This document shows, one piece after another, positions 5,338 through 21,522 of a DNA stretch of 21,699 nucleotides. A model generated the notes under the pieces. It made no database searches and was not told where the DNA came from. It was given only the letters and a program-made list of their open reading frames with translations. Position numbers and translations under genes: made by a program. Origin of the DNA: a virus. The first letter of the stretch is position 1. Each line of letters starts with the position of its first letter. The DNA lies in IMG/VR virus record IMGVR_UViG_3300037963_000714, positions 4,113 to 25,811 of that record; one strand, 5' to 3'.

Positions 5338-8300
5338 ATGACTGAATCAAAGTACATTGCAGGCGCTGGCGGCGGTGGCGGTGGCGGCAAAGGCGGTGGA
5401 GGCCGCAGTGGTGGAGGCAGCAGCACCCCTACCGAACAGGACGATTCGCTCCAGTCAAAACAATTTGGTAACGTTCTTGACCTTATTAGCGAAGGTGAAA
5501 TTGAAGGATTAGACGACGGCAACAAAAGCGTTTTCCTTGATGGAACGCCTATTGAAGACTCTGCGGGCAACAACAACTTTTCCGGCTTTACCGTTGTCAC
5601 TCGAAACGGTACGCAGGCTCAGACGTACATTCCTGGTGTTTTTGCGAATGTCGAAAATGAAGTTTCTGTCAACGTAGAGGTAACAAACGCCAGTTCTGTT
5701 ACTAGGCAAATTACTGATACTAATGTTGACCGTGTCCGTGTAACTATCACTATCCCTTCTCTCCAGAAATTTGAAGACGATGGCGACATTGTTGGGACAA
5801 GCGTCAGCTTAGACATCCAAGTTCAGTACGACGGAGGCGGTTTCAATAGCGTTAAAACCGACACGATTAGCGGCAAAAGCAGCAGCCAGTATCAACGCGA
5901 TTATCTGCTTACGTTGTCTGGATCGTTTCCTGTGGACATTAGGGTTGTTCGCAGCACTGCAGACACCAGCAGCACAAAACTGGCGAACAAAACCAACTGG
6001 GCAAGCTTTACTGAAATCATCGACGCAAAGCTGCGTTATCCCAACAGCGCTTTAGTTGGTCTGCGGTTTGATTCACGGCAATTCAACGCAATCCCGCAGC
6101 GCAAGTATTTAATTCGGGGCATCAAAGTCAGGATCCCCAGCAATGCAACTGTTGACACGACTACTCACTTGGGACGGATCACATATTCCGGGGTATGGGA
6201 TGGAACGTTTTCTGCGGCGACTTGGACAAACGACCCGGCGTGGTGTCTATGGGATCTGCTTACAGACACGCGCTATGGCGCAGGCGTGCCTGAGGCGTCT
6301 CTTGACCGTTATGACTTCTTTGCGATTAGTCAATATTGCAACGAGCTGGTTGATGACGGCAAAGGTGGCGAAGAGCCGCGATTCAGCTGCAATCTTTTAA
6401 TCAATCAGCGCAGGCAGGTTTACAACGTCATTCAAGAAATGACCAGTATTTTTAGAGGAATTTCGTATTACGGCGCTGGTTCGCTCGTGCTGTTGCAGGA
6501 CAAGCCGTCTGACGCGCAATACACGTTGGGTCCATCAAATGTTATTGAGGGACTGTTTTCTTACTCTGGTTCGTCGCTTCGCAGTAGGCACACCTGTGCG
6601 ACCGTTGCATATCAGGACTATGACGAGCAAGGTGAGGTCTCTTTTGAATACGTTGAAGACGAAAACGCAGTTTCTAAGTACGGCGTCAATAACAAAGACA
6701 TCAAGGCAGTTGGCTGCTATTCCCAAGGGCAGGCCAACAGGCTTGGCAAATGGACGCTGCTAAGCGAGCAAGATTTGTGTGAAACTTGCACATTTTCGAT
6801 TGGCATCGATTCAGGGATTGTCTTACGACCTGGCATGGTCGTAGACATTGCGGACCCGTTGCGTAGTGGAACGCGAAGAAATGGCCGCGTTTCTTCTGCT
6901 ACAACTTCGCAGGTAACAATCGACAGCACTACTGATTTAGACGTTGATACTGAAAATACGCCGACCATTTCGGTTATTTTGCCTACCGGTTTAGTTGAAA
7001 CACGCAGCATTAGTTCTATCGACGGTGCTGCTGTAGATGTCAGCACTGATTTCAGTCAAGCCCCGGCGGTCAATACGCCGTGGTTAATTCAAACGTCAGA
7101 CGTGCAGTCGCAACAGTTTCGCGTTGTTTCGGTAGCTGAAGGCGATGACGGTGCTTTTAGCGTTACAGCACTTAAGTACAACGAAAGCATTTATGCGGCT
7201 GTTGAGGAGAACTTGAACCTGACGCAGAGAGACATCACAAATATTTCTGCAACACCTGAAGCCGTAACGAACATAACCGCCACTGAGTTCCTTTACGAAG
7301 ATGGAGGTTTGGTGCGAACAGGCGTAGACATTACCTGGCAAAGCCCAGTAACCAATGTTCAGGAGTTTGTCGTTAAGCATCGTCTTGATGAGAACAACTT
7401 TGAGCAGGTAGTTACTCAAACGCAATCAACACAAGTCAGAGGGTTGAAGGCCGGATCTTTTGAGTTGCAGATTACTGCTAAGAGTTTTGTAGGTAAAAGC
7501 GGCCCAACAACTTCCCAGACGTTCGCGCTTGCAGGCAAAACAGCAGTTCCAGGTAACGTGACGAACCTCACGCTAGAGCCGTTGAGCTACAACAGTGCCC
7601 GGTTGCGCTGGGACGAAGCTGTTGACATCGACGTAAAAGTCAGTGGCAAGGTTCATATTCGGCACAACAATCTCACCAACGGAACTGCGACATGGAGTAA
7701 CAGCACGGATCTAGTTGACGCCATTGCAGGCAACTCAACTGAAAAGACGGTGCCATTGCTTGAGGGTGAGTATCTGGTCAAGTTTGAGGATGACGGCGGC
7801 AGGAAAAGCGCAACAGAGACCACGATCATTGTGGACAAGCCAGTCGCGCAAACTTTCTACGGCGTAGCGACCCAAAGAGAAGACCAGATCTCACCAACGC
7901 CGTTTACGGGCACAAAGACAAACACCGAATATGACGAAACCTATGACGCTCTAATTTTGTCCAGCTCTGATGGTGACGTGCAGTCATCTGGAGAGTATGA
8001 GTTCGCAGATACGCTCGACCTTGAAGCGGTTTACAGCCTGGATCTAGAGCGCCGAATCGTGTCTCGGGGCATCTACCCAAGCGATCTTTGGGACGACAGA
8101 ACAGAAAACATTGACAGTTGGGAAGACATTGATGGGGATGTCGTTGATGAAGTCAACGCGGAGCTTTACGTGCGAAGAACCGACGACGACCCAAGTGGCA
8201 CTCCTACTTACACCGACTGGCAGCCGCTAGCCAATGGCATGTTGAAAGCACGGGCGTTTCAGTTCAAAGTCATACTTACGTCAAACGACACAGCGCAGAA

Positions 8301-13435: not shown

Positions 13436-16400
13436 ATGGCGAACACAATTAAGCACAAGCGCGGAAGCGGCTCTAATCCGACTGCTTCTGACTTGGAAGT
13501 GGGTGAACTCGCTATTAGAACAGACACTGGCGTTGTCTTCACCAAAAAGGATGACAACTCTGTAGCTGAAGTTGCAGGTGGCGTAGCTAATAACAGCGAT
13601 CAAAGTGAAAGTATTGGCCTGGGTCCAAATGCACTTGATTCAGAAACTAGCGGTACAGAAAACACTGCTTTAGGGAGTAGCGCAGGCACAGCGGTAACAA
13701 CCGGCGGCTCAAATGTATTTTTGGGTAGGGCTGCTGGCTTAGGGCTTACAACTGGCAACAGCAACGTGATCATCGGCCATGACGCAGCCGAAGACATGAC
13801 ATCTCAAAGTAGTTGCGTAATTCTTGGCAGACAAGCGGGTCAAAACACTACTGCTGATTCACAAATTCTGATTGGTCTCAACGCAGGCAGAAAACAATCT
13901 GGCCACGCAGGTAACATTATAATTGGCCATGAGGCTTTATCTCAACAAACTGGAACGGCTGAACGCATAACTTGCATCGGCTTTGAGTCGCAGAAAAGTA
14001 ACAATGGAGGAGACGACAATACAAGCGTTGGCTATCATACTATCCTTAACAATACTACAGGGTCTGGTAATTCAGCCTTTGGTAGTTATGCCCTAAGGTC
14101 AAACACTACGGGTACTTACAACGTAGCTACCGGCTATTATGCTCTTTACGACAACACAACTGGCGAAAAGAACGTAGCCATCGGCAATCTTGCTCTTCAA
14201 AATAATACTACAGGCCAACTTAACGTAGCCATTGGCTCTGAGGCTCTTAATAATGCCACTGAGACATATTGGAATATTGGAATCGGTGACAGGGCGTTAC
14301 TGGACTGCTCCTCTGGTTGGTTGAACATAGGGATAGGACTTAAGGCCGCCGAAAATTTAACAAGTGGTCAAAGAAACATAGTTTTAGGCGAATCTGCTGC
14401 GCCAGATTTAACTACTGGAGACAACAACATTTGTATTGGCAAAGAATCAGGCGACAGTTTAACAACAGGCGACAACAACATAATTCTTGGCCTTGAATCT
14501 CAACCAAGCTCTGCGACAGTCTCTAACGAAATCACCTTAGGCAATAGCTCTATTAACAGCCTTCGTATCCCAGGGCTTCAGTCTGGAGCGACTGATGGGC
14601 AGGTTCTTACTTACAGTTCTAGTAACGGTAATATTACGCTTGCCGATGCTTCTTCAGGCTCTGCAGACAAAATCACCGAAGGTAATACAGAGGCAGAAGT
14701 TGTTGATACTGGGTCAGATGGCCACTTCAAAGTAACGACCGAGGGTACTGAGCGGCTACGAGTTGACAGTTCAGGCAGGGTTGGAATAGGAACAGACTCG
14801 CCTGAAGAAATTTTACATATTGCAGCAGCAAGTGAAACAGTAGGCAGTCGAGATGGTGTATTGCTCCAATCAACATCAAGCGCGGCTGCTGATACGGGAC
14901 TGCCTATTGTCTTCACGGCTGATGTAGGAGGTGGATTTACAAACTACGGATTAGCATCTATCGCTGGGCGAAAAGAAACTGGAACCGTTAATGGTTCAGA
15001 TGCTGCTGGTTATTTGCAGTTTGCGACTAGTAGCACTGGTGGATCGGTTAGCGAGGCAATGAGAATCGACAGCTCGGGCCACGTAGGCATCGGCACAACA
15101 CCAAATGATGTTGACTCTATTGGTAGAGCATTAAACATTGCTAGCTCTACAGGTGGCGCGATATACCTGCAAGACACCGATTCTTTAACAGGAAAGTTTG
15201 CGGCTATTTCATATAACGGCTCAACGGCTCGCCTGCAAATTCACGCGCATCATTCTTCAAGTTTTATTGACTTAGGAACGAATGGTACGGAGCGGATGCG
15301 TATTGATAGCTCAGGCAATGTGGGCATTGGAACTTCGTCTCCTGACTCCAACCTTGTTGTAAAAGGTTCATCTGGTGATGTTGAATTTAAACTACTTACA
15401 CACAACGGCATTTCTCAGTCGCGCATTTTGTTTGCCGACAATACTGCTGTTGATGGCGTAATTACATACGATCACAACGATCGAAAATTATTGATTGGTG
15501 CAGGTACAAGCACGCCTACGGATGGTGATTTAACTATCGACAGCTCGGGCAGAATTGGCGTTGGAACGTCAAGCCCTAGCGTAGAGCTATCAATTGCAGG
15601 GTCTGACCCGCAACTTTGTATTTGGGAAGGATCTGATGGAGATTCAAGCTCAAAAGTTCAACTAGGCACAGGCACCACACAGGGCTTTATAAATATACAA
15701 AAGGGTGATGGGACTAGAACTGTTCAAATTAACAGTGATGGTGATAGCTTTTTTAACGGCGGTGACATTGGGATTGGAACTGATAATCCCACCGATAATC
15801 TACATGTTTATGACAGTGGTTTTGCTGGTGTTGTTATCCAATCAGGCAGGTCTAGTGGCACTATCGGTGGATTGATTTTACAAGATAGCAGCGGAAATAA
15901 TAAGGCCAATGTTTATGGTGAAGTTGGTGGTGAGTTAGTTCTTGGCACAGATGGTAATGAGCGGATGCGAATCGACAGCTCTGGCCATGTATCTATCGGG
16001 ACTACCACTGCCACTACAGGCAGAAACATAACTATGGCAGCCGACACTGATGCTGGTATTCAAATTACCGGCGCTGATGCTGGAACTAACGCCTACATAA
16101 CTGCGACTCCTGGCTCAAATGCAGCCACTTATATTGGTAACACTAACTCCCGAAATTTGCATTTTACTGTTGGTGGTAACACCGCAACAAAGATGTGTAT
16201 CGAAAGCTCGGGGAATGTGGGGATTGGAACGACGTCGCCTTCTGAAAAATTAGACGTTAATGGCTCTATTTTGGCCGAAAGAATAAGGTTAACTGGTGCA
16301 ATTTATGAAAACGATCAAAACATTAGCGCAGATTATTCGATTACATCTGGTAGTAACGCTATGAGTGCTGGTCCGATCACAATCGACTCAGGGGTGACAG

Positions 16401-16438
16401 TTACGGTAACCTCTGGGTGTACTTGGACTGTTGTCTGA
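13436..16438 (+). CDS. Large repetitive tail fibre protein, 1000 aa
   Basis: The N-terminus MANTIKHKRGSGSNPTASDL with LEVGELAIRTDTG is a short docking domain. Residues 59-381 are about 19 units of 17 residues with consensus N-x-x-I-G-x-x-A-L-x-x-N-T-T-G-x-x, like the beta-roll heads of trimeric adhesins. Residues about 435-935 carry seven spaced (E)RMRIDSSGxVGIGTxSP motifs linking beta-rich segments. The end, DQNISADYSITSGSN then GPITIDSGVTVTVTSGCTWTVV, is a terminal motif I recall from marine phage fibres. No S74 autoprotease is seen, so folding may need the separate chaperone. GAGG at 13426-13429, 6 bases before the ATG, is the ribosome site. It is probably a long side or tip fibre that binds the host surface. 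Confidence 0.87.
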   Translation: MANTIKHKRGSGSNPTASDLEVGELAIRTDTGVVFTKKDDNSVAEVAGGVANNSDQSESIGLGPNALDSETSGTENTALGSSAGTAVTTGGSNVFLGRAAGLGLTTGNSNVIIGHDAAEDMTSQSSCVILGRQAGQNTTADSQILIGLNAGRKQSGHAGNIIIGHEALSQQTGTAERITCIGFESQKSNNGGDDNTSVGYHTILNNTTGSGNSAFGSYALRSNTTGTYNVATGYYALYDNTTGEKNVAIGNLALQNNTTGQLNVAIGSEALNNATETYWNIGIGDRALLDCSSGWLNIGIGLKAAENLTSGQRNIVLGESAAPDLTTGDNNICIGKESGDSLTTGDNNIILGLESQPSSATVSNEITLGNSSINSLRIPGLQSGATDGQVLTYSSSNGNITLADASSGSADKITEGNTEAEVVDTGSDGHFKVTTEGTERLRVDSSGRVGIGTDSPEEILHIAAASETVGSRDGVLLQSTSSAAADTGLPIVFTADVGGGFTNYGLASIAGRKETGTVNGSDAAGYLQFATSSTGGSVSEAMRIDSSGHVGIGTTPNDVDSIGRALNIASSTGGAIYLQDTDSLTGKFAAISYNGSTARLQIHAHHSSSFIDLGTNGTERMRIDSSGNVGIGTSSPDSNLVVKGSSGDVEFKLLTHNGISQSRILFADNTAVDGVITYDHNDRKLLIGAGTSTPTDGDLTIDSSGRIGVGTSSPSVELSIAGSDPQLCIWEGSDGDSSSKVQLGTGTTQGFINIQKGDGTRTVQINSDGDSFFNGGDIGIGTDNPTDNLHVYDSGFAGVVIQSGRSSGTIGGLILQDSSGNNKANVYGEVGGELVLGTDGNERMRIDSSGHVSIGTTTATTGRNITMAADTDAGIQITGADAGTNAYITATPGSNAATYIGNTNSRNLHFTVGGNTATKMCIESSGNVGIGTTSPSEKLDVNGSILAERIRLTGAIYENDQNISADYSITSGSNAMSAGPITIDSGVTVTVTSGCTWTVV
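13610..14578 (+). repeat. 51-bp coding repeats: 19 units of a 17-residue adhesin-like motif
   Basis: Nearly every unit is exactly 17 codons. The best preserved are in the middle, for example NVATGYYALYDNTTGEK, NVAIGNLALQNNTTGQL and NVAIGSEALNNATETYW in succession. Units near residues 110-180 are degenerate and vary by a residue. At DNA level, neighbouring units share runs such as aacgtagccat(t/c)ggc. One turn of a beta-roll per unit is the likely structure. Confidence 0.8.
14750..16235 (+). repeat. Seven dispersed RIDSSGxVGIGT motifs in the large fibre
   Basis: Copies of a motif of about 45 bases encoding (E)R(M/L)RIDSSG(N/H/R)VGIGT(S/D)SP occur near 14750, 15054, 15290, 15524, 15730 (degenerate), 15959 and 16191. 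Spacing is about 200-300 bases. Each begins a short beta segment of the fibre shaft. The same motif is common in phage and bacterial fibre-like proteins. It could serve as homology for gain or loss of shaft segments. Confidence 0.75.
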
Positions 16439-16923: not shown

Positions 16924-17108
16924 TCAGATTGGCTGCAGCAACACTGTTGGGCTTGGGGCTTGCTTTTGGTTCTGCTGCTTTGTCGCACCACAAGTATGTG
17001 CCAAGTACATCAGTGGACATGACAGAAAATGGACACCTCACGACTACCGAAAATGCAGAAAGCAAGTACGGTAGTCACGGAAAAAACGTACCCCACGTTC
17101 AACAATGA
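16920..17108 (+). CDS. Small exported His-containing protein, 62 aa
   Basis: The gene starts in an ATGA overlap with the 57-aa gene and ends in one with the beta-barrel gene. Residues 1-21 (MIRLAAATLLGLGLAFGSAA) form a good Sec signal peptide, with possible cleavage after Ala-Leu-Ser near residue 22. The mature part is about 40 residues, polar and rich in His (HHKY, GHL, SHGK, PHVQQ), with no cysteine. Coupling to the mini outer-membrane protein suggests that both act in the periplasm or outer membrane. It is a hypothetical protein with no recognised family. Confidence 0.68.
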   Translation: MIRLAAATLLGLGLAFGSAALSHHKYVPSTSVDMTENGHLTTTENAESKYGSHGKNVPHVQQ

Positions 17109-17470
17109 TCAAAAAGATTGTTTTTGGTGCAGCCGCTGGCGCTCTTGCCTTGGCTCCCCTCTCTGCAGTCGCAGGCCCCTACGCCAACATTGAGGCCAAC
17201 GCAGGATGGGCAGGCAGTGACTATGTGGGAGCAACCACAGACCTGCACGTAGGTTGGGAAGGCTCTGATGGTCCTTACAGCTACTACCTGCAGGCTGGGC
17301 CAGCTGTTGTCTCACCTGACGGCGGCGACACTGAGCTTGAGTTCTCCGGCAAAGTTGGCGGCGCTGTTGCTGCCTCTGATTCTCTTTCTGTCTACGGAGA
17401 AATTTCAGGCATCACTGGAGATGTTGTGAACAGCTACGGCGGTAAAGCTGGCGTCAAGTTCCTGTTCTGA
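17105..17470 (+). CDS. Phage-encoded outer-membrane beta-barrel-like protein, 121 aa
   Basis: A Sec signal peptide (residues 1-23, ending LSAVAG) is followed by about 98 residues of alternating aromatic/hydrophobic and small polar residues. Roughly six strands are visible: YANIEANAGW, DLHVGWEG, YSYYLQAGPAVV, ELEFSGKVGGAVAA, LSVYGEISG and GGKAGVKFLF. The chain ends in Phe, as most BAM-inserted outer-membrane proteins do. A six-strand unit is small, so it may oligomerise or be a periplasmic sheet. I recall related proteins in marine cyanophages. By analogy with lambda Lom, a phage protein placed in the host outer membrane might change adsorption or exclude other phages; this is not shown here. 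It is the last gene before a terminator. Confidence 0.75.
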   Translation: MIKKIVFGAAAGALALAPLSAVAGPYANIEANAGWAGSDYVGATTDLHVGWEGSDGPYSYYLQAGPAVVSPDGGDTELEFSGKVGGAVAASDSLSVYGEISGITGDVVNSYGGKAGVKFLF

Positions 17471-17554: not shown

Positions 17555-17794
17555 ATGCAGAAGTATCTGAACATCCTCGGTGCTGCTGGTTTTATCCTTG
17601 CTGCTGCCAACACAACGCTGCTTGTGGTTGCTGTGGTGCGTGGTCCGGCGCTTGTCGAAGAAAACCTGGACAGGATTCAGGCGCTGATGATTGAAAAGAT
17701 GCACGAAACGCTCAGCGACTCCGTGACTGAGGCAATGCCCAGCCAGGTCAAAGAGCTGATGCCTAGCGCCACTGGACCTGCGATTCCGTTCTAG
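17555..17794 (+). CDS. Single-span membrane protein, 79 aa
   Basis: This is the first gene after the terminator. GGAG at 17545-17548 is 6 bases before the ATG. Residues 6-30 (NILGAAGFILAAANTTLLVVAVV) form one membrane helix; the rest is an amphipathic helix (EENLDRIQALMIEKMHETLSD) and a tail ending MPSATGPAIPF. I recall very similar proteins (MQKYLNILGAA start, TGPAxP end) preceding the MPEIRT protein in marine cyanophages, so the pair seems conserved. The function is unknown. The stop TAG shares its last G with the next GTG start. Confidence 0.75.
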   Translation: MQKYLNILGAAGFILAAANTTLLVVAVVRGPALVEENLDRIQALMIEKMHETLSDSVTEAMPSQVKELMPSATGPAIPF

Positions 17795-18408
17795 TGCCTG
17801 AGATTCGCACTATTGGGATCAGCGACATTCGGGTTTGGGACGGAATCCCTGCAATGTCTGTTCCAAAAGCACCGCCTGTCACGGTCAATATCGGCGTGCC
17901 GGTTATTGACATGCCTGCCTTCAACCCAATGGATTACAGGCCGGACAAGTTAACGGTAGATCCTGAGCCCGTCTTGCCGAACCCTCCCAGTACGCCAACA
18001 CCACCAGCGCCAACGCCACCCACGCTGCCACCTGCGAAAGCTGCTGCTGTCGATGTAGATCCAAGATGTCCTCCCCTTCGTGCGAAGGAGGTGGGAACGC
18101 TTGTCCAAAATGGTTCAAAAAGAATTGCGGGCTACGAGATACAAGACGGTAAATGCGTCGTCCTGTATGAAGAGATCAAGTTGCCTGAACAAGTCATAGC
18201 AGCAATTCCATCGTTGCCGCAGGTGACGACTGTAGGGGTTACCGCTGCTGTTGGTGTGACTGCTGGTTTAGCAACGCCGCTACTGCTTAAGGCTGTGAAA
18301 CCTGCTGTGAAGAAGATCGCGAAGAAGATCCAGGGTTTGTTGGGACGTAAGGCGAAACCGGTAAGCGTATTTGAGAGGAGGCAGGCGCAACGGGCGGCGC
18401 GGAAATAG
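17794..18408 (+). CDS. Pro-rich membrane protein of the MPEIRT type, 204 aa
   Basis: Residues 1-50 (MPEIRTIGISDIRVWDGIPA, NIGVPVIDMPAFNPMDY) are a conserved beta-type head that I recall from marine cyanophages. Residues 57-80 are a Pro-rich linker (PNPPSTPTPPAPTPP). Residues 90-140 are a small domain with C92 and C121 and the motif VGTLVxNGSKRIAGYEIQDGKCV. Residues 143-168 are hydrophobic (a probable membrane helix), followed by a strongly basic tail. The GTG start overlaps the upstream stop by one base. The last 122 bases overlap the minus-strand gene tail-to-tail. A perfect AAGGAGGT lies inside the gene at 18085-18092. The protein probably spans the envelope or sits in the virion; function unknown. 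Confidence 0.78.
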   Translation: MPEIRTIGISDIRVWDGIPAMSVPKAPPVTVNIGVPVIDMPAFNPMDYRPDKLTVDPEPVLPNPPSTPTPPAPTPPTLPPAKAAAVDVDPRCPPLRAKEVGTLVQNGSKRIAGYEIQDGKCVVLYEEIKLPEQVIAAIPSLPQVTTVGVTAAVGVTAGLATPLLLKAVKPAVKKIAKKIQGLLGRKAKPVSVFERRQAQRAARK

Positions 18409-19183
18409 CGTGTCTATGCGGCAAAACTTGCCCTGGCTTTGGCTTGATCATTACGTCAGCGCAAACAGCAAAGTAAGGCGACTTGGGATGAAACTCGATG
18501 CCTTTTAGCTTTAGTTCGCCGCAGTTCTTGAGCCTGGCGATTTCATACTCAAGCCGCTTTGTCTCTACAACTTGTTGATGCAGGCGGATGTTGGCATCAA
18601 CCATCGCTTTGCAGCGTTCTTGCAGGCCACCATCTAGAGGAATTGTTGCCTGGATCGACAAACCACCTGACCAGTTGTGAGTGTCTTTTTGACCTGTCCT
18701 GGTGGGCATTGTGTAGAGGACTCGTCCAGGATTGTCGAGTACCCCATCCTCATCAAGATCAGAAAGATCATATACAGGCTCAGGAAAGGTATCCACGTAC
18801 GGAAGCTGATAGCTTTTCGACCTGTTGACATAAGGAGTGACCGTAAGGGTTGGGCCTTGGCATTGAATGCCGTTGCCATAGGTATTCTGGAACGCTGCGC
18901 TGGGCGCAATCATTACCGCTTGATTTGTGACGCTGCCAGAACTGGTTGCGGTTGGAGCGGCAGTGGCAGACACACCACCGATTGTTTCGGCGTTAGCTGG
19001 TGACGCTAAGACTACTGCGAGAAGGTAGAGATAGTGTCTGTGATTTGCTCGATTTCGGTGACGCGCTGGATGGTGGTCACATTGCTGAGCCCTGGCCCTG
19101 AATAGGTCTCTACCAGCTGGAACGCACCACCGGGATTGGTGATTTTCCAGCTTGGCTTGTTGTTGACGTCTAGGGCTGACCAT
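18287..19183 (-). CDS. Exported conserved cyanophage protein with Ca-loop-like motif; start uncertain
   Basis: The convincing product begins with a signal peptide, YLYLLAVVLASPANA (residues 51-65 of this frame, about 19033-18989), then ETIGGVSATAAPTATSSGSV and IQCQGPTLTVTPYV. DLDEDGVLDNPG (residues 143-153) resembles an EF-hand or thrombospondin-type calcium loop. Residues 185-222 are helical (LQERCKAMVDANIRLHQQVV, then RLEYEIARLKNCGEL), followed by FHPKSPYFAVCADV and LPHRH. The last 40 residues are Ser/Pro-rich. I recall this family in marine cyanophages. The only canonical in-frame start before the signal peptide is ATG 19183, which adds about 50 unlikely residues read across the upstream gene. 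A GTG at 18973 would remove the signal peptide. The gene overlaps the plus-strand Pro-rich gene by 122 bp. Confidence 0.75.
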   Translation of the reverse strand: MVSPRRQQQAKLENHQSRWCVPAGRDLFRARAQQCDHHPARHRNRANHRHYLYLLAVVLASPANAETIGGVSATAAPTATSSGSVTNQAVMIAPSAAFQNTYGNGIQCQGPTLTVTPYVNRSKSYQLPYVDTFPEPVYDLSDLDEDGVLDNPGRVLYTMPTRTGQKDTHNWSGGLSIQATIPLDGGLQERCKAMVDANIRLHQQVVETKRLEYEIARLKNCGELKLKGIEFHPKSPYFAVCADVMIKPKPGQVLPHRHAISAPPVAPASSQIRLPVSPYVPTNPGSSSRSSSQQVSQP

Positions 19184-19437
19184 CCATTTACTGTTGTTGT
19201 GCCTGGCGTAAGGCTTGCTCCACCGACGGGTTCAATGTTGGTGCCACTGACAGAGTATTGCCAGCCTGTGCCGTATGACTCGCTGACAATTGTTTCAGTG
19301 ACCTTACTGCTTGTTTCTGTATGACTGGTCATCGAACCAGTTGAAAAATTGGGCACCACTGGAACGGATTGTGCCGGCTTGGCAAAAGCAAACGTTTCGC
19401 CTATTAGCCCGCACAACAGCAGAAGCAGAACACGCAT
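19012..19437 (-). CDS. Exported beta-rich protein, 141 aa
   Basis: The N-terminus MRVLLLLLCGLIGETFAFA is a signal peptide; the Cys at residue 9 sits in LLLCG, so a lipoprotein reading is possible but the lipobox is weak. The mature part has FSTGSMTSHTETSSKVTETI, GWQYSVSGTNIEP, PGGAFQLVETYSGPGLSN and a C-terminal TTIQRVTEIEQITDTISTFSQ. I recall this family (GSMTSHTExxSKVTE to FSQ) as conserved in marine cyanophages. The ATG shares one base with the upstream stop (TGATG). Parts resemble the 162-residue protein upstream, suggesting an ancient duplication. It probably acts in the periplasm, at the outer membrane or on the virion; function unknown. Confidence 0.8.
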   Translation of the reverse strand: MRVLLLLLCGLIGETFAFAKPAQSVPVVPNFSTGSMTSHTETSSKVTETIVSESYGTGWQYSVSGTNIEPVGGASLTPGTTTVNGWSALDVNNKPSWKITNPGGAFQLVETYSGPGLSNVTTIQRVTEIEQITDTISTFSQ

Positions 19438-19925
19438 CAGTCGATGGTGAGTTCAGTTACAAACTGGCCGATCGCAAGGGTGTTCGCTCCACCTGCTGTA
19501 ACCGTAAGTGCGCCTGCTGGTGACACTGTGCCCGCCAAGTCGCCAGCAGTTCCTGAAGCTGTGGACTGCAAGCTTGAGAAGTTAGGGACAGTGCCTGCAG
19601 TAATAGCTGATGTTGGGACGGCATCACCCTGCGTGTACGACTGACTGAAGCTAAAAGCGTTGCCAGGTGTGTCCTGCGTCACAGAGATTGTGCCTGGGGC
19701 GTAAACACCGGAAGTGATTGTGCCTGCTGAAATGGTGTTTGCTGTGGTGCCATCAGTTGTATCAACACCTGAGCCGCTGATGCTGAACGAGCTTCCGATG
19801 CGTTCTGCAGTTGTCATCGCGCCACCAACCTGGAGCGAAACACTGCTTTGGATTTTGTGATTTAGATCAGCGTGTGCTGCTGGGCCAAAAGCCAGCAACG
19901 TAACCAATGGCAGGAAGTGCTTCAT
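19437..19925 (-). CDS. Exported Ser/Thr/Gly-rich beta protein, 162 aa
   Basis: Residues 1-20 (MKHFLPLVTLLAFGPAAHA) form a clear Sec signal peptide cut before DLNHKI. The mature part is low in charge and rich in Thr, Ser, Gly and Ala, with repeated beta motifs: SFSISGSGVDTTDGTT, TISAGTITSGVYAPGTISV, TPGNAFSFSQSYTQGDAVP and GALTVTAGGANTLAIG. There is no cysteine. I recall similar proteins in the same place in marine cyanophages. An AGGAG sequence lies 8 bases before the ATG. Its start overlaps the preceding membrane-protein stop as ATGA, and its stop overlaps the next ATG. Function unknown; fibre-like or adhesive surface protein is possible. Confidence 0.8.
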   Translation of the reverse strand: MKHFLPLVTLLAFGPAAHADLNHKIQSSVSLQVGGAMTTAERIGSSFSISGSGVDTTDGTTANTISAGTITSGVYAPGTISVTQDTPGNAFSFSQSYTQGDAVPTSAITAGTVPNFSSLQSTASGTAGDLAGTVSPAGALTVTAGGANTLAIGQFVTELTID

Positions 19926-20176
19926 TTTGGTGGCTCCTTTAAATCAATCTTAGGTGGCTGTTTTTTCTGCTGGTTAGCAGTCTTGCGCTCAATACCAAAA
20001 GAGGCCATTGCCCCTGTAAGCAAACTAGCCACAAAAGTATTGTCCATTTTCATCTGAGGGAAGAAGCCCAGATAAGAGACAGTGAGCAATGTGGCGCTCC
20101 ATACCAAAACAGCGCATTTCACGATGTCCGCGATTGCAACGCCTTCTTTTTCTTGACTTTCTTGCGGTTCTGCCAT
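19922..20176 (-). CDS. Two-span small membrane protein, 84 aa (holin-like topology)
   Basis: The protein has an acidic N-terminus (MAEPQESQEKEG), a membrane helix at residues 16-39 (IADIVKCAVLVWSATLLTVSYLGFF), a short loop (PQMKMDN), a second weaker helix at 47-62 (TFVASLLTGAMASFG) and a basic Pro-rich tail. That size and topology fit class II holins, but no diagnostic family motif is seen; I recall similar proteins in cyanophages annotated only as hypothetical. I chose ATG 20176 because MAEPQExxEKEG is the conserved-looking start. The longer frame up to 20329 reads across the divergent gene. It is the first gene of the minus operon and overlaps the next as ATGA. Confidence 0.72.
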   Translation of the reverse strand: MAEPQESQEKEGVAIADIVKCAVLVWSATLLTVSYLGFFPQMKMDNTFVASLLTGAMASFGIERKTANQQKKQPPKIDLKEPPK

Positions 20177-20201: not shown

Positions 20202-20453
20202 ATGATTGAAGTCTGGGCGGCTGCCGCTGGTGCGTCAATCACCGTGGCTGGGCTTGGCATCACAGGACTAAAGCAGCAAAACCAACAGGGCAGAGACTCA
20301 CTGGTGCGCTTGACCGTTGCTGTGGACAACCTCAGCCGCCAGCTTGACGTGCTTCACACAGACATCAGAAGCGTCAATCAAGAGGTTTTCGCGAGGCTTG
20401 CCGAGCTTGAGGCATCAGTAGCGCGACTGGAAGGCCACGCAAACAGAAACTAG
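20202..20453 (+). CDS. Membrane-anchored coiled-coil protein, 83 aa
   Basis: A hydrophobic N-terminal helix (MIEVWAAAAGASITVAGLGI, residues 3-22) precedes a long polar helix (KQQNQQGRDSLVRLTVAVD, then LDVLHTDIRSVNQEVFARLAEL) that should form a coiled coil to residue 78. The layout resembles i-spanins or small phage membrane anchors, and I recall near-identical N-termini in marine cyanophages. ATG 20202 is preceded by GAGG at 7 bases; an in-frame ATG at 20175 would add nine residues overlapping the divergent gene and is less likely. Position next to the C39-like peptidase genes suggests involvement in lysis, not proven. Confidence 0.75.
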   Translation: MIEVWAAAAGASITVAGLGITGLKQQNQQGRDSLVRLTVAVDNLSRQLDVLHTDIRSVNQEVFARLAELEASVARLEGHANRN

Positions 20454-20477: not shown

Positions 20478-20648
20478 ATGTTCTTGATCCTGAAGCCAAT
20501 CCTTTTTCGGTTTTTGCGGTCTGAAAGTTTGAAGCGTTTGGTTGTAGACCTGATCAAGGCATACGCAAAGCGCTCTGACAACACGGTTGATGATTCTGTG
20601 GCAGCCTTTTTAGAAAAAAACTTGTTTCCGCCAACCAGTAACAAGTGA
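20478..20648 (+). CDS. Small basic protein, 56 aa
   Basis: MFLILKPILFRFLRSESLKR is followed by LVVDLIKAYAKRSDNTVDD and ends VAAFLEKNLFPPTSNK. The N-terminal 14 residues are hydrophobic and basic, enough for membrane association but short for a spanning helix. I recall cyanophage proteins with the same start (MFLxLxPILFRFLR) and end (NLFP). The stop overlaps the next GTG start (GTGA), supporting a real gene. No clear ribosome site precedes the ATG. Function unknown; its neighbours suggest the lysis region. Confidence 0.72.
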   Translation: MFLILKPILFRFLRSESLKRLVVDLIKAYAKRSDNTVDDSVAAFLEKNLFPPTSNK

Positions 20649-20791
20649 TCCGTAAGCGCGTCATCTTCACAGTGCTTCTGGGAGTGATGACGGTGCTATC
20701 TGGCGTGGTTTTGACTAGCGGTGGCTTAATTTATTACGCAGGTTTTCTTGATGGCAGCAAAGGTTGTGACGCGGCAGGATTAGAGCGATGA
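20645..20791 (+). CDS. Small single-span membrane protein, 48 aa
   Basis: This GTG-started gene overlaps the 56-aa stop (GTGA) and its own stop overlaps the peptidase ATG (ATGA), so it is linked into a coupled chain. The product MIRKRVIFTVLLGVMTVLSG continues VVLTSGGLIYYAGFLDGSKG and ends CDAAGLER. Residues 7-34 are one membrane helix behind a basic N-terminus, which places the C-terminus outside the cytoplasm. A single Cys at 41 lies too late for a lipobox. It could be a holin-like, pinholin-like or anchor protein; this is inferred from location only. Confidence 0.68.
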   Translation: MIRKRVIFTVLLGVMTVLSGVVLTSGGLIYYAGFLDGSKGCDAAGLER

Positions 20792-21522
20792 CGCCTCGCC
20801 TTGGGAGCCTAATGAGCCTCGCGTTGCTACCCTTTTTTGCATTCTTCAGATCTGACAGCCCGCATCAACTTGCTGCAATTAAGGAGCTGGAAGACGCGCT
20901 GCCTGAAGAGTTGTTAGCTGAGGATGCAGCGTGGTTCGAGGCGTGGAAAGCTAGCGGCATTGCTCAAAAGGCCGTTGTTCCTTATGTTCATCAGCTTGAT
21001 TTTGATTACAGGGGCCACAGGCGATGTCTAGACGCATCCGCAGCAATGCTGGCCATTATGTACGGCAAAGTGAGCAGCGCCGAAGAGTATGGGGAGGTAC
21101 GGAAAAAATTTGGCGACACGACAGACGTGCTGGCCCAGGTGAGGACACTGAGAGAACTTGGGCTGCACGCAGAGTTCAGGAATGATGCAGATGGCGCATT
21201 AGTCGAAGCAGAAATTGCCAGCGGTCGCCCTGTTCTTGCCGGGTGGCTGCATAAGGGCAACATGCTTCGCGGTGAACCGCCTATGTGTGACTCGCGGTCT
21301 TGCGGGCATTGGAGCGTAATTGTTGGCTTTGAGGGCACCGAATCAACTGGTGATTCTGCTTTTGTGCTCCATGACCCAATGGGCGCTCCAGATATTGAGC
21401 GTGGTGGCCATCCACACCGCTATGGAGGCAAAAACGTCAGGGTGCCACGTAGCACTTTTAATCAACGCTGGATGGTGGAAGGGCCAAGCAGTGGCTGGGT
21501 CATCCTTGTGGATGATGAGTGA
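20788..21522 (+). CDS. C39-like papain-fold cysteine peptidase, candidate lysis enzyme
   Basis: This 244-residue protein has the layout of the peptidase C39-like family (PF13529): Q69 in VVPYVHQLDFDYRG (oxyanion hole), C80 in RRCLDASAAMLAIMYG (nucleophile), H174 in CGHWSVIVGF and D196 in FVLHDPMG. All four expected catalytic positions are present. Residues 5-20 (LGSLMSLALLPFFAFF) form a hydrophobic N-terminal segment, either a signal peptide or an uncleaved anchor. The gene follows three small membrane-associated genes in a coupled chain, so it is a plausible endolysin or envelope-active peptidase; a virion-associated or immunity-type protease remains possible. Its start overlaps the preceding gene by 4 bp. 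Confidence 0.78.
   Translation: MTPRLGSLMSLALLPFFAFFRSDSPHQLAAIKELEDALPEELLAEDAAWFEAWKASGIAQKAVVPYVHQLDFDYRGHRRCLDASAAMLAIMYGKVSSAEEYGEVRKKFGDTTDVLAQVRTLRELGLHAEFRNDADGALVEAEIASGRPVLAGWLHKGNMLRGEPPMCDSRSCGHWSVIVGFEGTESTGDSAFVLHDPMGAPDIERGGHPHRYGGKNVRVPRSTFNQRWMVEGPSSGWVILVDDE

Follow-up and report, generated by a model that had tools for sequence, protein, structure and literature searches.

A known, uncharacterised cassette of marine picocyanophages in a new phage type, with a testable hypothesis of a role in lysis

What might a counter-transcribed block of genes for one membrane protein and three exported proteins do for a phage of marine picocyanobacteria? Lysis of Prochlorococcus and Synechococcus by viruses is a major carbon flux, and the block in question lies in a 21,699-nucleotide stretch of DNA, here called the window (positions 4113-25811 of the 25,811-base virus record IMGVR_UViG_3300037963_000714). 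An initial annotation had described four coupled minus-strand genes at 18287-20176 with plus-strand flanks, and this description was borne out. The four open reading frames are present, with PHROG families 564, 650 and 848 matched at <=1e-46 and DUF6450 and DUF6322 recognised by Pfam, and they are coupled by overlaps of ATGA between DUF6450 and 564, of 1 nt between 564 and 650 and of 172 nt between 650 and 848. On the plus strand phrog_570, phrog_568 and a small Phage_OMP barrel run towards the block, while the divergent side holds a C39-like peptidase, a transmembrane/coiled-coil protein and two small proteins (Table 1). At their 3′ ends, 848 and phrog_570 are antisense to each other over 122 nt (18287-18408; 215 nt in the P-SSM2 version). 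Of the divergent genes, the C39-like peptidase has an N-terminal hydrophobic stretch and is possibly an endolysin of the signal-arrest-release type, and a 56-aa phrog_2738 protein (20478-20648) belongs to a family that adjoins the terminase small subunit (TerS) in T7-like cyanophages, Syn5 among them. Further away, a large tail-fibre-like protein (13436-16438) contains many NTTGxxNxAxG repeats that resemble YadA-type head repeats. Scanning the window for promoters and terminators gave results no better than chance.

Table 1. Features of the cassette and its neighbours in the window
Feature	Positions	Strand	Match
Phage_OMP small beta-barrel (PF24653), often adjoins cassette	17105-17470	+	Pfam 1.2e-39
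phrog_568 ('plasmid stability' label), 79 aa, single TM	17555-17794	+	phrog_568 3e-6
phrog_570 (T4-GC 234), Pro-rich, C-terminal TM, convergent partner	17794-18408	+	phrog_570 1.5e-44
phrog_848 (T4-GC 235), ATG start within 650	18287-19183	-	phrog_848 6.7e-92
Dual-coding overlap, 172 nt: 650 (frame 0) and 848 leader (frame -1)	19012-19183	-	
phrog_650 / DUF6322 (T4-GC 236), exported	19012-19437	-	Pfam 2.5e-31
phrog_564 (T4-GC 237), exported, beta-rich	19437-19925	-	phrog_564 4.7e-64
DUF6450 (PF20048; T4-GC 218), small membrane protein, holin-like candidate	19922-20176	-	Pfam 1.8e-15
phrog_26178, N-terminal TM and coiled coil, divergent neighbour	20202-20453	+	phrog_26178 6.6e-23
C39-like peptidase, endolysin PHROG, divergent neighbour	20788-21522	+	phrog_10051 endolysin 1.1e-45; Peptidase_C39_2 6.8e-7

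The DUF6450 protein, which also matched phrog_21865, phrog_721 and phrog_2714 in the PHROG profile search, had been called a two-span membrane protein. A transmembrane scan of the window copy found one strong segment and a weaker second one; the homologue PSSP7_043 of phage P-SSP7 is annotated with two transmembrane regions. The 564, 650 and 848 proteins carry N-terminal hydrophobic export signals, in agreement with the three exported proteins proposed; the signal of 564, MKHFLPLVTLLAFGPAAHA, was read by eye and falls below the threshold of the scan. No cassette protein has a lipobox ([LVI][ASTVIG][GAS]C) in its N-terminal 45 residues. In 848 a basic leader precedes the signal peptide, the mature protein starts with a near-invariant stretch of the ETIGGVSATA type, four cysteines are invariant, and a long helix is predicted at residues 185-226 with low confidence (AF2 pLDDT 47, a failed model). 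This model was too poor for a fold search with 848. Residues ~142-153 of 848 (window 18725-18760), DLDEDGVLDNPG, resemble an acidic, DxDxDG-like calcium-binding loop, which is conserved in the siphovirus and myovirus versions and missing from those of podoviruses. The 650 and 564 proteins are distant paralogues (hhalign E 9e-8), and a sequence search of the PDB returned nothing.

The cassette itself is already known, having been described by Sullivan et al (2010; PMC3037559) as a cluster of T4-GCs 218, 219, 234, 235 and 237 together with a protein labelled 'plasmid stability', present in every T4-like cyanophage except S-PM2; they gave no function and guessed at functional clustering and mobility. 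The families are those of the window, in the same convergent layout. HMM mapping on P-SSM4 assigned DUF6450 to PSSM4_133 (GC 218) and phrog_570 to PSSM4_137 (GC 234), T4-GCs 235 and 237 are adjacent on one strand both in the window and, by GC tags, in P-SSM2, P-SSM4, Syn19 and P-HM2, and phrog_568 corresponds to the 'plasmid stability' protein (T4-GC 414; HMM against the P-SSM4 copy 3e-19). For T4-GC 219, searched for without a dedicated profile, no window ORF was matched. Unlike the cassette of Sullivan et al, the window copy resides in a lambda-tailed phage and has DUF6450 at the head of a 564-650-848 operon; moreover, 650 (T4-GC 236) is always present, yet missing from their list. The literature consulted does not mention DUF6322, the main text of the P-HM2 paper contains no gene-level data on the cassette loci, and the set has no assigned function, as the initial annotation had supposed. 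New here are the extension of the cassette to lambda-tailed and T7-like phages, the constant presence of 650, and an 848 start codon that overlaps 650.

How widely is this set shared? By tblastn, DUF6450 was found in 458 phage records, 848 in 442, 650 in 412 and 564 in 403, essentially all of them cyanophages. Relatives of 848 also occur in 470 stretches of metagenomic viral contigs, and 15 matches in genome contigs look, judging by title and contig size, like phage contigs within marine MAGs and single-cell genomes. Among metagenomic contigs long enough to show the neighbour concerned, 650 lay upstream of 848 in 75/75 and 564 in 68/68, phrog_570 lay downstream in 61/61 and phrog_568 in 56/57, and Phage_OMP stood beside the cassette in 36/45. 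The plus-strand genes of one flank fall within the conserved unit, which is a convergent cassette rather than the four-gene island first proposed: the four genes stand, but that boundary was too narrow, since the unit takes in phrog_570, phrog_568 and often the OMP. DUF6450, 650 and 848 were jointly present in six genomes (P-SSP7, P-HS2, P-SCSP1u, P-SSM2, Syn9 and DSL-LC02) and jointly absent from five (S-PM2, PSS2, Syn5, P60 and S-CBS4), part of the absence searches having been run without a same-run positive control, although identical models match other genomes.

These linkage counts and the report of Sullivan et al bear out the expectation that the families keep company in marine cyanophages, those of T4 type among them. 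The expectation that the block occurs in unrelated phage types was also correct. T4-like isolates have the same convergent layout as the window with DUF6450 on the opposite strand, and their cassette lies near psbA, hli, regA or hsp20, away from known lysis genes. The siphovirus isolate P-HS2 (morphotype from PMC7852597) matches the window in order, with DUF6450-564-650-848 followed by convergent 570 and 568. T7-like podoviruses carry DUF6450-650-848 without 564, in which the PHROGs concur, and no 568 was detected beside these genes; in P-SSP7 the order is tail fibre, a 570-like protein, DUF6450 with two TM segments, 650/848 with a -1 frame overlap, and TerS. In cassette-free Syn5, gp47 (TM and coiled coil, 36392-36652) fills the slot between tail fibre and TerS and is possibly a functional replacement. 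The cassette is carried by most of the marine picocyanobacterial viruses examined, among them myo-, sipho- and podoviruses, which have hosts in common and differ in their virions.

The junction between 650 and 848 proved to hide coding sequence. In the window the start of 848 falls within 650, 172 nt before the latter ends and in the -1 frame, and the signal peptide and basic leader of 848, being encoded by the overlap, appear only when this start is used. In 45/46 divergent sequences, all but P-SSM2, 650 contains an ATG at precisely 166 or 172 nt from its end. The A of this ATG is invariably the last base of a codon that precedes a conserved TGG, while the amino acid before the TGG varies (G, S, T, E or Q). 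The -1 frame of 650 was open in 45/45 sequences against a mean expectation of 1.2% per sequence from synonymous codon shuffling, and the +1 frame in 0/45. Annotated isolates and records of several types, 15 in all, have overlaps of 56-208 nt that are always open and mostly in the -1 frame (the combined shuffle product is ~4e-26, which is not a strict probability, the sequences being related). The overlap recurs in all three morphotypes, with P-SCSP1u using the +1 frame instead. Synonymous-site depression within the overlap was weak (ratio 0.70 vs 0.75, p=0.26, in a near set; 0.78 vs 0.90, p=0.006, in a far set), so that this test alone is insufficient proof of dual coding. The conservation of the overlap is nevertheless far beyond chance, and the 650/848 junction is dual coding.

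Most relatives lack a start codon near the signal peptide, which had raised the idea that 848 might be translated from a non-canonical start or through a programmed frameshift. Two results ruled this out: the ATG conserved 166-172 nt ahead of the 650 stop in every close relative and, decisively, the frame-openness test. In P-HS2, 848 is split over two frames (leader 6044-6199, body 6139-6756), owing to an indel, an error of sequencing or a genuine frameshift. Of the annotated records checked, about half omit or shorten 848 and lose the overlap: the gene is annotated from a downstream start in P-SSP7, P-SSP2, KBS-P-1A, S-TIP37, S-H68, P-SSM4, DSL-LC02 and others, which removes the signal peptide, and S-T4 has no gene annotated at the leader position. 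The exported nature of 848 is hidden as a result, which may partly explain why the gene has been overlooked.

Because the set keeps to host range in all three virion types, the host envelope is its likelier target; the initial annotation had left the choice between host envelope and phage surface, and no test result pointed to the virion. Gene position and the overlapping exported genes suggest help in breaking the host outer envelope, a step for which these viruses have yielded no genes. Our preferred reading, held tentatively and at somewhat less than even odds, is that the cassette is a horizontally shared host-envelope module of marine picocyanophages acting late, at lysis, as a holin plus spanin equivalent. 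We infer localisation (beyond the signal peptides), timing and lysis function as follows. DUF6450 would be a holin-like protein of the inner membrane; Sec-exported 650, with its paralogue 564, would join 848 in a periplasmic or outer-membrane complex, the translation of 848 being tied to that of 650 through the conserved overlap; and this complex would disrupt the outer membrane as a spanin equivalent without a lipoprotein. A T4-late-like element, TATAAATA, precedes 564 and DUF6450 by ~30 nt in 11/27 cases vs 17/211 other ORFs (Fisher p 3e-5, in an exploratory test whose window was picked after a first look and whose lineages are not independent), and hints that these two genes may be expressed late. 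The window cassette also adjoins the predicted endolysin-family C39 peptidase and small membrane proteins, which supports a putative lysis neighbourhood. One of these neighbours, the 20202-20453 protein with its coiled coil and a TM-like segment at residues 2-18, could be the real holin or spanin instead. Against the lysis reading, S-PM2 (on WH7803), PSS2, Syn5, P60 and S-CBS4 do without the whole set, which is therefore not indispensable. The lack of a lipobox, the failed model of 848 and the absence of a significant PDB fold match for 650 also count against it, as do the distance of the T4-like cassettes from known lysis genes and the opposite strand of their DUF6450.

The main rival, which we consider a weaker but serious contender, is modification of the host surface, in which the small OMP and the exported proteins would mask receptors, block superinfection or otherwise reshape the envelope, lysis being no part of their role. 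It would account for the exported and outer-membrane-type proteins, for the placement of the cassette beside the host-takeover genes psbA and hli in T4-like genomes, and for its being common to phages that compete for the same hosts. However, podovirus copies occupy the position of a lysis locus, and the promoter-like elements are late rather than early, a weak objection. Exclusion genes, moreover, tend towards diversification, and the sequence conservation of the cassette is very strong.

Less probable still is an exported beta oligomer, with the long hairpins of 650 and 564 forming an outer-membrane pore or surface fibre, anchored in the periplasm by 848, for secretion or nutrient leakage rather than lysis. 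The AF2 model of 650 does consist of two strands of 33-35 residues, and its nearest Foldseek matches, all non-significant, are long-hairpin beta-barrel pores. Mean pLDDT is only 64, though, the fold search was significant only for the protein's own cyanophage family, with no significant PDB match (best E 0.21), and such pores would match any long hairpin.

We hold as improbable the 2010 suggestion of a selfish mobile cassette maintained by a plasmid-stability function. The cassette does shift its location between genomes, and a 'plasmid stability' protein is cited by Sullivan et al and later papers; yet the phrog_568 protein of the window is a small single-TM protein with a weak match and no Pfam family above the cut-off, and podoviruses keep DUF6450-650-848 without a detected 568. 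The 'plasmid stability' name, used in papers to argue for mobility, has little support at window 17555-17794. Least likely of all, some or all cassette proteins could be minor virion components, as many virion proteins of cyanophages lack a known function, but those of the cassette carry Sec signal peptides, the identical set serves three unrelated virion architectures, and the text of the P-SCSP1u cryo-EM paper does not include gp31-gp33, although naming may differ.

The lysis reading gains its appeal from a set that tracks host rather than virion type, a podovirus position equivalent to that of the T7 holin, and an exported gene hidden in an overlap. No spanin genes turned up in picocyanobacterial phages in the survey of Kongari et al (2018), who listed these cyanophages as spanin-less; they also noted that overlapped spanins frequently have misannotated starts, that lysis genes in overlaps are often missed, and that the o-spanin role could fall to an OMP in place of a lipoprotein. 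The cassette offers a concrete, testable candidate. In T7 the tail fibre is followed by the class II holin, TerS and then the nested 18.5/18.7 spanins. A profile search of T7, run without a same-run positive control, found no sequence similarity to the cassette proteins, DUF6450 and gp17.5 included, and the conserved residues of DUF6450 (W-S, Y and D..F.A) are its own. Both are nevertheless small proteins with a charged C-terminal tail, gp17.5 with two TM segments and DUF6450 with one strong and one weaker segment in the window and two in the P-SSP7 annotation, and in T7-like cyanophages the podovirus set, with DUF6450, sits between tail fibre and TerS, as gp17.5 does in T7. The 650/848 pair in turn resembles Rz/Rz1 (T7 18.5/18.7) in its two exported products from same-strand genes that overlap in different frames, in starts that are often misannotated, and in its closeness to terminase genes and to a small membrane protein (two TM segments in the P-SSP7 annotation). 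An i-spanin has an N-terminal TM segment and a helical periplasmic domain, and 848 could resemble it through its N-terminal hydrophobic stretch and the low-confidence helix noted above. The pair differs from Rz/Rz1 in its larger proteins and beta-rich first partner, and from T7 18.5/18.7 in lying upstream rather than downstream of TerS; since it has no lipobox, and so no lipoprotein, it is not a canonical two-component spanin. DUF6450 and the 650/848 pair, often with 564 and 570, may, though we think it rather unlikely, be a lipoprotein-free outer-membrane disruption system common to most marine picocyanophages, a new spanin-like class specific to the picocyanobacterial envelope.
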